Of a stretch of DNA of 64,000 bases, positions 2,212 through 7,538 are shown piece by piece. The DNA is taken from positions 62,001 through 126,000 of the forward strand of contig JAMXAG010000003.1 of assembly GCA_024281675.1 (NCBI GenBank). The letters are read 5' to 3'. Source of the stretch: Nitrosomonas sp. GTDB lineage: Bacteria; Pseudomonadota; Gammaproteobacteria; Burkholderiales; Nitrosomonadaceae. The notes beneath the pieces are model-generated. The model was not told the DNA's origin and ran no database searches. It worked only from the letters and a program-made list of their open reading frames with translations. Position 1 is the stretch's first letter. Each line of letters opens with the position of its first letter. The position numbers and the translations under genes were made by a program.

Positions 2212-2769
2212 TTAACCATACACCATCCAAAGTGGATCGACGCCAGCTTCAAGACCAACCAATTTTACTGACCAATCATTGGTAGTACCGTATACATCGG
2301 CAGTTAAAATATTAGTGGAATAGTTATAAGACAATTGAGAGTAGTAATCAAAATTTTGATTGCCATATTGTGTAACATCAGCATCAATTCCGCTAATATC
2401 GATGTAATCGCCTTCACTATAGCTAAGATTGAAAATGGTATCTCTTTGACCTGTTGCAGGACTCCCGCCCGAAAACAACCAAACGAAAGCATCATAACCT
2501 GACCCACCAATCAGCGAGTCTTTACCCAGACCACCTAACAGAACATCATTACCATTGCCGCCGTTTAGAAAATCATTGCCTTTACTGCCATCCAAACGAT
2601 CATGACCATTTCCACCATAAAGGAAATCGTCGCCGCCCCAACCGTTTATATCATCATTGCCGCCATACCCCCAAACTTTGTCGACGGCATTACTTGTTTT
2701 TGGACCTCCCGTGGAATTATAGGTGTTATAGATAATGTCATCGAAATTTGTTCCATGGATATTTGCCAT
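2212..2769 (-). CDS. Small RTX-repeat (hemolysin-type calcium-binding) protein
   Basis: A 185-residue acidic, glycine-rich protein. Residues of about 35-95 hold consecutive nonapeptide repeats of the GGxGxDxLx type (for example GGNGHDRLDG, GGNGNDVLLGG, GGSGYDAFVW), which bind calcium in a parallel beta-roll. There is no N-terminal signal peptide. RTX proteins of this design normally leave by type I secretion through an uncleaved C-terminal signal, which fits the hydrophobic C-terminus. I place the start at 2769 because the Shine-Dalgarno AAGGAG (2783-2778) lies 8 bases from it, but only 2 bases from the ATG at 2775. No type I transporter gene is visible nearby and no enzymatic domain is seen, so the role is unknown. 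Confidence 0.8.
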   Translation of the reverse strand: MANIHGTNFDDIIYNTYNSTGGPKTSNAVDKVWGYGGNDDINGWGGDDFLYGGNGHDRLDGSKGNDFLNGGNGNDVLLGGLGKDSLIGGSGYDAFVWLFSGGSPATGQRDTIFNLSYSEGDYIDISGIDADVTQYGNQNFDYYSQLSYNYSTNILTADVYGTTNDWSVKLVGLEAGVDPLWMVYG

Positions 2770-2783
2770 TTTCATATCTCCTT

Positions 2784-5924: not shown

Positions 5925-7538
5925 ATGCGTATTGCGATAGCGCAAATCAACCCCATCGTTGGTGATATTTCTGGCAATGCAGAAAAAATTTTACGGGCCG
6001 TGCAACAAGCGATGCTTGCAGATGCTGAGCTTGTCATAACACCCGAGCTTGCATTATGCGGATATCCACCTAAAGACCTATTGTTGCGCGACGATTTTTA
6101 TCAATCGTGTCACCAAGCTTTACAAATGATCACGCAGGCAATTGGTGACATAACACTTGTGATAGGCCATCCACACCATGACGGCTGCAAGCTATATAAC
6201 GCGGCCTCAGTCATTCGTTCAGGCGAAATTACGCATACGTATCATAAAAGATTTCTGAGCAAATCCCCTTTTTTTAATGAGCTCTATTATTTTGATGAGG
6301 GTTTGGAACCTTGTTTTTTAAATTTCAATGGACTCAAGTTTTGTATTGATATCGGCGCAGATGCATTGCTGCACTCCGATCCGAGAAAATATACGCATGC
6401 TGACGTCGATATTTTGTTGTTTCTAAATGCTTCTCCGTATTTCATCGACAAGCAAGTGACACGCTATCAAGATACGCAGCACTATATCAAATGCACAGGT
6501 GTCAGCGTCATTCATGTGAATTTGGTTGGGGGGCAAGATGGTTTGGTTTTTGACGGAGCTTCCTTTGTTATGAATGCTGCCGGGGAATTGGTTCATCAAT
6601 CCGAGGAACTAATAGATACAATTGATTACATTGAGATTCAAAATAACCAACCGATAAAAAATAATACACTTGTAACTTCCTTGCCTCCTGTAGCCGGTGT
6701 TTACCAAGCGTTATGTTTGGGTGTCAAAGATTATGTTCGTAAGAATAATTTTCCGGGTGTTTTAATAGGGTTATCGGGGGGCATAGATTCAGCATTGGTA
6801 TTAGCGATCGCTGTCGATGCTCTGGGTGCGGAACGGGTAAAAACCGTGATGATGCCCACGCAATATACCGCTGACATCAGTTTAGCAGACGCGCAAGAGA
6901 TGGCCGGCCGATTGGGAGTTTTGCATTCAGAATGCAGTATTCAGGTTCTAGTTGATTTGTATTTATCGAAGATGACCAGTGATTTTGCGATTTCGCCCGA
7001 ATTATTTAATACCTCGACGATGCCGGAAAATATACAAGCACGCATTCGCGGCACACTGTTAATGGCACTTTCTAATCACAGCGGTTCAATTGTATTAACA
7101 ACCGGCAATAAGTCTGAAATTGCTGTGGGTTATTGCACTTTGTACGGTGATATGGCAGGTGGTTTGGCCGTACTTAAAGATGTTACCAAAACATTGGTTT
7201 ATCAGCTTTGTCATTATCGTAATCAAATCAGCCCGATTATTCCAGAGCGAATCCTACAACGGGCGCCTTCCGCTGAATTACGGCCTAATCAAACCGACCA
7301 AGATACTCTACCGCCGTATGAGATCCTCGACGCTATTATTGAAGCGTATGTTGAAAAGAATTATTCACGCAATGAAATTGTAGCGCTACATTTTGATCCG
7401 GAAATCGTAGAAAAAATAATTCATTTGATTCATCTCAACGAATACAAGCGCCAGCAAGCTCCAGTGGGAATACGTGTTACGTGCTGTGATTTCGATCATG
7501 CATGGCATTATCCTATTACATCTCGTTATCAGTCTTAG
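5925..7538 (+). CDS. nadE: Two-domain NAD synthetase with an altered glutaminase site
   Basis: Last step of NAD synthesis: ATP-dependent amidation of deamido-NAD. The 537 residues comprise an N-terminal nitrilase-like glutaminase domain (about 1-245) and a C-terminal synthetase domain with the PP-loop SGGIDS at 284-289. In the glutaminase triad, Glu41 (TPELALCGYPP) and Lys108 (TYHKRF) are present. The nucleophile cysteine, normally in an (N)ICADVW or ICEDIW segment, is replaced: the aligned stretch here reads IDIGADAL, with Gly144. The nearby GGQDELVFDG motif also has E changed to G. The synthetase half looks intact. The enzyme probably uses free ammonia rather than glutamine, which would suit an ammonia-rich cell. 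No obvious Shine-Dalgarno precedes the ATG. Confidence 0.93.
   Translation: MRIAIAQINPIVGDISGNAEKILRAVQQAMLADAELVITPELALCGYPPKDLLLRDDFYQSCHQALQMITQAIGDITLVIGHPHHDGCKLYNAASVIRSGEITHTYHKRFLSKSPFFNELYYFDEGLEPCFLNFNGLKFCIDIGADALLHSDPRKYTHADVDILLFLNASPYFIDKQVTRYQDTQHYIKCTGVSVIHVNLVGGQDGLVFDGASFVMNAAGELVHQSEELIDTIDYIEIQNNQPIKNNTLVTSLPPVAGVYQALCLGVKDYVRKNNFPGVLIGLSGGIDSALVLAIAVDALGAERVKTVMMPTQYTADISLADAQEMAGRLGVLHSECSIQVLVDLYLSKMTSDFAISPELFNTSTMPENIQARIRGTLLMALSNHSGSIVLTTGNKSEIAVGYCTLYGDMAGGLAVLKDVTKTLVYQLCHYRNQISPIIPERILQRAPSAELRPNQTDQDTLPPYEILDAIIEAYVEKNYSRNEIVALHFDPEIVEKIIHLIHLNEYKRQQAPVGIRVTCCDFDHAWHYPITSRYQS

Follow-up and report, generated by a model that had tools for sequence, protein, structure and literature searches.

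According to the scheme set out in an available portion of PMC3376133, two-component NAD synthetases use glutamine and single-domain NAD synthetases use ammonia. The human two-substrate case is described in PMC6946656, where the enzyme accepts ammonia as well as glutamine. For ammonia versus glutamine, the accessible excerpt of that paper gives 20-23 versus 3.7 (apparently kcat) and 42 versus 8.3 (apparently Km), along with values of 0.49 and 0.45 that appear to be the kcat/Km ratio.

The nadE gene carried by the 64,000-nucleotide stretch of Nitrosomonas sp. DNA analyzed here (the window) very likely encodes a fused NAD synthetase that depends on ammonia and carries a retained pseudo-glutaminase (Table 1). 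Its reading frame is unbroken when translated, as the preliminary description had stated. In Pfam matches, CN_hydrolase covers residues 2-239 and NAD_synthase residues 260-512 (239.1 bits), and the whole-protein model NF010588/PRK13981 scores 673.9 bits over residues 1-536 (curated cut-off, 479). Both this score and the PP-loop, which fits the pattern SGG[IV]DS and is intact as first described, assign the protein to NadE2, and the best-matching solved chain is 4f4h, the NadE of Burkholderia thailandensis (521.4 bits). The CN_hydrolase domain separates the enzyme from the single-domain ammonia-dependent form, which has no glutaminase domain. It also departs from the glutamine-dependent class, which is marked by a Cys-Glu-Lys glutaminase triad, in that Glu41 and Lys108 are present and Cys is replaced by Gly144.

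Table 1. Positions of nadE, its domains and its diagnostic codons in the window.
Feature	Position	Strand	Basis
nadE, two-domain (NadE2-type) NAD synthetase, 537 aa	5925..7538	+	ORF, Pfam, NF010588
N-terminal glutaminase domain of the nitrilase type (taken as residues 1-250), catalytically dead as judged by sequence	5925..6674	+	Pfam, alignments
Glu41, codon GAG, triad acid/base, kept	6045..6047	+	sequence and alignment
Lys108, codon AAA, triad lysine, kept	6246..6248	+	sequence and alignment
Gly144, codon GGC, nucleophile position (Cys in 187/206 aligned NadE2)	6354..6356	+	alignment
Leu148, codon TTG; Trp in 186/187 Cys-bearing enzymes	6366..6368	+	alignment
Gly206, codon GGT, within GGQDGLVF; Glu in 187/187 Cys-bearing NadE2	6540..6542	+	alignment
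Synthetase domain, C-terminal, residues 258-535 as used here	6696..7529	+	Pfam NAD_synthase
PP-loop SGGIDS, intact, residues 284-289	6774..6791	+	sequence and alignment
Asp524, codon GAT, C-terminal stretch; Gly in 184/185 Cys-bearing NadE2 with a letter there	7494..7496	+	alignment

Alignment leaves no ambiguity, at the level of sequence, about the identity of the nucleophile column. The IDIGAD segment of the window enzyme stands opposite VVICED of 4f4h, and the column occupied by Gly144 holds Cys in 86 of the 105 aligned NadE2 proteins from Nitrosomonadaceae and in all 101 from outside the family, whereas the columns of Glu41 and Lys108 are invariant in all 206. The preliminary description had read the catalytic Cys as replaced by Gly, the other two triad residues as kept and the Glu of GGQDELVF as changed to Gly, and had proposed comparison with other Nitrosomonas NadE proteins as a check on the column. 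All of these readings hold in the alignment, which also reveals W148L and G524D, two changes absent from that earlier list.

The same Gly is found in all four members of the clade to which the window enzyme belongs (L009/L038, L010 and L011 are 95%, 89% and 76% identical to it, respectively), which excludes a base error at this position. A sequencing, assembly or contamination artefact could be suspected because the assembly, with 1.51% contamination, is in 29 contigs, one of which carries a second purF start. However, Gly occurs in the assemblies of three other species, in an open frame and with conserved gene order, and conservation across four assemblies refutes this explanation, to which we attach a negligible probability. 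The second purF start (L238, G000:C9:18042-18248) reaches the end of the fetched stretch and has neighbors unlike those of the C1 copy; it belongs either to a contaminant contig or to a true second copy of purF.

To place the window enzyme among its relatives, 125 Nitrosomonadaceae genomes were searched, and 109 of these yielded a NadE2 match at E 1e-60. The nucleophile column could be read in 110 family genes, four of them incomplete (105 aligned plus 5 more). Cys is kept in 90 and absent from 20 (19/105 plus 1/5). Among the incomplete genes that cover column 144 are L073 (482 aa, at a contig end), L083 (314 aa) and L263 of G009 (192 aa), and the fragments in G029 (a 52-aa frame) and G030 (a 101-aa frame) stop short of it and are excluded from the count. 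NadE2 proteins from other families of the order, taken as the best-scoring rows among the matches listed rather than as a random sample, have Cys in 101 of 101 cases. Similarly, the NadE1-type enzymes (700 aa) present in 27 Nitrosomonas genomes have Cys in every instance.

The distribution of the two enzyme types varies among genomes. Only the NadE1 type, and no NadE2, was found in G002, G003, G004, G014, G021, G022, G033, G035, G036, G068, G069 and G072; the same applies to G030, whose residual 101-aa frame matches the NadE2 C-terminus. Other Nitrosomonas carry both types, and G052, a Nitrosomonas genome that is 98% complete, gave no NAD synthase match. In G044, nadE2 is broken close to the boundary between its domains, beside unread bases, and its two halves (L083, G044:C1:382760-384157, and G044:C1:1617609-1618379) are separated by 1.2 Mb of the same contig, probably through an assembly fault.

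Three groups make up the 20 Cys-less enzymes. The window clade (group A) has four Gly at column 144. Group B is a second set of Nitrosomonas enzymes with five Phe, two Gly and one Tyr, plus the G009 fragment with Phe, and group C, from a genus whose genomes measure 1-2 Mb, has six Ser and one Gly. A 77-row tree was built that includes 54 Cys-bearing rows from the family, left after thinning, and an outgroup of 5 rows. The group C gene L112 (G089:C40:78828-80432) was left out; its 351-aa product ends at one in-frame TAG, possibly an assembly error, and most of its synthetase columns are without letters. Group A forms one clade within Cys-bearing Nitrosomonas (support 100/100), and group C forms another, apart from the window clade (98/94). 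Group B includes one Cys-bearing row, L074, and a single origin within this group is compatible with the well-supported branches; the fewest changes of Cys state on the tree is four. The nucleophile appears from these sequences to have been lost at least three times in the family, in that two or more other lineages seem to have undergone the loss independently of the window clade. The preliminary description had explained the loss by a life on ammonia. This lifestyle is insufficient as an explanation because 90 of the 110 family enzymes retain Cys.

Loss of the nucleophile is accompanied by remodeling of the glutamine pocket. We defined 35 glutaminase columns, including column 144, in which no fewer than 98% of the 185 long Cys-bearing rows agree. 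Between one and nine of these are changed in each of 19 Cys-less rows, compared with a mean of 0.12 in Cys-bearing rows inside the family and 0.20 outside. Pocket positions that are altered include W148 (14/19) and Y47 (9/19). Specifically, group A has W148L and E206G in all four members; group B has lost W148 and K176 in 8/8 and F117 in 7/8; and group C has lost R180 in 5/7 and, in the synthetase domain, both R517 and G524 in 6/6. Glu41 and Lys108 are retained in all 19. The glutamine-site residues named in the accessible part of PMC6946656 include a gate of the glutamine tunnel (Trp179 in the human enzyme, Phe180 in that of M. tuberculosis), Phe130 and Tyr58, and by their spacing from Cys and Glu these would correspond to W148, F117 and Y47, respectively. 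The Cys-bearing enzyme within group B (L074, G010:C155:6426-8021) already has Y47H, E119D, W148Q, Y270F and G394S, and is possibly an enzyme caught before nucleophile loss.

These patterns might reflect neutral decay, in which abundant ammonia relaxed selection, Cys drifted away and the domain persists for the sake of the fused fold. This explanation, whose probability we place just short of even, is compatible with ammonia dependence. The nucleophile has been replaced repeatedly and by differing residues (Gly, Phe, Tyr and Ser), pocket losses are lineage-specific and had begun in the Cys-bearing L074, and the three clades share changed glutaminase columns no more often than chance predicts (0.26 and 0.91). 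Furthermore, the glutaminase domain has a high share of the change in two of the three dead clades. The ratio of glutaminase to synthetase branch lengths is 1.74 in A, 1.80 in B and 1.15 in C, compared with 1.16 for the Cys-bearing family, but a high ratio alone proves nothing because the outgroup (5 rows) gives 1.61.

Against neutral decay stand the retention of Glu41 and Lys108 in 19/19 and the low rate of amino acid replacement within the dead clades. Pairwise dN/dS values for the glutaminase domain, obtained by a simple counting method and not by a branch model, are 0.064-0.093 for the three group A pairs with dS < 1; two saturated pairs of this group fall at 0.091-0.101. Group B yields 0.165-0.185 (three pairs) and group C 0.113-0.184 (two pairs), and the median for Cys-bearing family pairs is 0.128 (397 pairs after the dS filter). 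Of the 10 dead-domain pairs computed, the 8 with dS < 1.2 have values of 0.064-0.185, within the Cys-bearing range. Thus, the dead glutaminase domain is under continued purifying selection and is not rotting. On the stem of group A, with branch lengths fitted separately, the glutaminase domain has a length of 0.369 versus 0.187 for the synthetase domain, and the data are consistent with a burst of change on this stem followed by constraint.

A further point against purely neutral decay comes from the synthetase domain, where each of the three dead clades is altered at columns 394 and 524 (0.0023 by weighted permutation), although synthetase columns common to at least two dead clades show no excess over expectation (0.31). 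An extended C-terminal loop is described as contacting the glutaminase in the portion of PMC3376133 at hand, and column 524, near the C-terminus, would lie within this loop. The change at column 394 is G394S in 11 of 18 Cys-less rows and in 3 of 186 Cys-bearing rows. We considered it as a motif of ammonia-using enzymes (TSN of 2e18 and 3p52), but give it little weight because L074 has G394S with its Cys in place and because the equivalent position of Nitrosomonas NadE1 enzymes reads G in 18, A in 2 and S in 1 (6 of 27 are unread by the pattern).

A check for a second nadE had been proposed in the preliminary description, and our genome search found none. At a threshold of E 10, two other frames exceed the 21-bit Pfam cut-off (with 32.8 and 29.6) and are GuaA and MnmA. 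A single NAD synthase is present at E 1e-9 in 19 of 19 Cys-less genomes, including that of the window, and the twentieth, G009, has one at 1e-12.

Alternatively, the enzyme might still use glutamine, with a different residue as nucleophile or with a glutaminase supplied by a separate protein. The retained Glu41 and Lys108, the presence of Cys140 four residues from the vacant position and a stand-alone nitrilase of ~290 aa encoded in the genome would fit this alternative, which we nevertheless judge very improbable. Cys140, the substitute nucleophile that the preliminary description itself had raised against its reading, is unlikely in this role because it is Arg in the clade member L011. Versions of such enzymes in which the catalytic Cys is changed to Ala or Ser are not known to be active. 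Relatives with these changes were made for crystals, as recorded in the titles of 3sez, 5nz5 and others. A nitrilase of similar size is present in all 13 genomes searched for this family (8 Cys-less and 5 Cys-bearing), each of which encodes NadE, a ~500-aa protein that by size is probably Lnt and a nitrilase of ~280-315 aa. Nothing in this set distinguishes the 8 Cys-less genomes, and a partner glutaminase specific to them is rejected on this sample; a fourth nitrilase-type protein occurs in 2 of the 13 (G010 and G113).

Cys loss is not general in the window genome because the other amidotransferases that were read keep this residue. With patterns for the nucleophile, the Cys motif was found in eight frames: a TrpG/PabA-type subunit, CarA, GuaA, PyrG, HisH, asparagine synthase, GlmS and PurF. 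The same motif is present in L233, a frame that resembles class I amidotransferases, and L234, which we read as DJ-1-like, keeps its Cys.

The window genome encodes an AmoC match (1.8e-128), and a search of the same genome with PF02461 (AMO) gave no match; from its predicted proteins, the host is an ammonia oxidizer. AMO was found in all four Nitrosomonadaceae genera searched, and of the 20 Cys-less genomes 18 have AMO or AmoC, some of it fragmentary. Neither was found in G086 and G088, both from the small-genome genus g2. G088 is 99% complete; either these two genomes have lost ammonia oxidation or the genes fall into gaps of the assemblies.

All 15 Nitrosomonas stretches compared (14 genomes; L038 and L275 counted as one), Cys-bearing and dead alike, have the genes in the order ilvE-small protein-phosphomutase-nadE, which was undetected in four stretches from other genera. 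Because they share this order, dead and Cys-bearing Nitrosomonas nadE genes look like orthologues, and horizontal transfer of nadE is not favored. A glnB gene adjoining nadE, as expected for PII-regulated NadE2, was not detected with one PII T-loop pattern, whether in the window or among 11 stretches of 9-14 kb that cover Cys-bearing as well as dead genes. Elsewhere in the window, positions 2212-2775 (- strand) encode a small protein of 187 aa that is calcium-binding-repeat-like, with matches far below family cut-offs; it is found in L038/L275 at 96% and was undetected in the other stretches compared.

A structural model of the window enzyme, computed from 28 sequences, has a mean pLDDT of 76.3 and a pTM of 0.78, with pLDDT < 50 for residues 110-127 and 505-537. 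Its first structural match is 4f4h (TM 0.74), at an rmsd of 16.1 that makes the placing of the two domains unreliable. The next matches are nitrilase-fold amidases over ~240-260 columns. In the model the fold appears to be kept, and any tunnel is beyond the model's reach.

We favor an ammonia-dependent synthetase with a retained pseudo-glutaminase. Lacking a nucleophile, the Gly144 enzyme would form no glutamyl thioester, and consequently the synthetase domain would amidate deamido-NAD with free ammonia. With the high ammonia of nitrifier cells, such an enzyme would be workable, and in an ammonia-oxidizing host with this sole NAD synthase, loss of Cys would thus be tolerated or favored. Folding, contacts between subunits or regulation may be the reason why the dead domain persists. 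The preliminary description had proposed that the enzyme makes no use of glutamine and depends on ammonia, and this prediction agrees with the missing nucleophile, the single synthase, the lack of an extra nitrilase in the 8 Cys-less genomes searched, the intact state of the other amidotransferases read and the AmoC-bearing host. We likewise infer a loss of glutamine use and a use of ammonia in the cell. Its view that an unneeded domain function was lost is only half right: the domain remains full-length and conserved (dN/dS 0.064-0.093) and keeps Glu41 and Lys108, and most family enzymes retain Cys. Probably, these Cys-less nitrifiers make NAD directly from ammonia.

Several observations run counter to this interpretation. 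Glu41 and Lys108 persist, which a purely dead site would not account for, and the Cys-less G086 and G088 are without AMO or AmoC matches. Most family enzymes (90/110) retain Cys in spite of the AMO found in all four genera searched, the raised branch-length ratio of group A is approached by the outgroup and absent from group C, and changed glutaminase columns coincide among the dead clades only at chance level. A bolder proposal, which we consider unlikely, is that the dead active site has been repurposed as an ammonia intake port that feeds the retained tunnel and ties NAD synthesis to ammonia supply. It draws on the retention of Glu41 and Lys108 alongside a glutamine pocket that has been dismantled differently in each lineage. 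If true, the ammonia oxidizers would constitute a natural replicate experiment in the conversion of an amidotransferase into an ammonia enzyme.

A dead-glutaminase NadE in ammonia oxidizers is not reported among the open-access titles and abstract openings listed. The whole-protein model NF010588 ignores the missing Cys, and therefore this step could be misinterpreted in annotation and in models of nitrogen flow. The switch is open to direct testing because close relatives that keep both Cys and the gene order are at hand.

As noted above, the window enzyme most closely resembles the dimeric NadE2 proteins (NF010588) of Burkholderia thailandensis (4f4h) and Acinetobacter baumannii (5kha), with which it shares two domains, full length, an intact synthetase and the Glu and Lys of the triad. 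Unlike these enzymes, it is without the Cys nucleophile, carries W148L, E206G and G524D, and is predicted not to use glutamine. In its predicted use of free ammonia it resembles the single-domain ammonia-dependent NAD synthetases (2e18 and 3p52), but these have no glutaminase domain, as stated in the available text of PMC3376133, whereas the window enzyme keeps a complete dead one. A fused NadE whose glutaminase is dead yet conserved, and which has evolved repeatedly within one ammonia-oxidizing family, would add a further state to the scheme as given in that text.

Similarly, human CPS1 keeps a dead glutaminase-like domain, in which Cys is replaced by Ser294, and is fed by ammonia, according to the part of PMC4655335 available. 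However, CPS1 is a different enzyme, and its domain is a class I glutaminase with a His-Glu-Cys triad.
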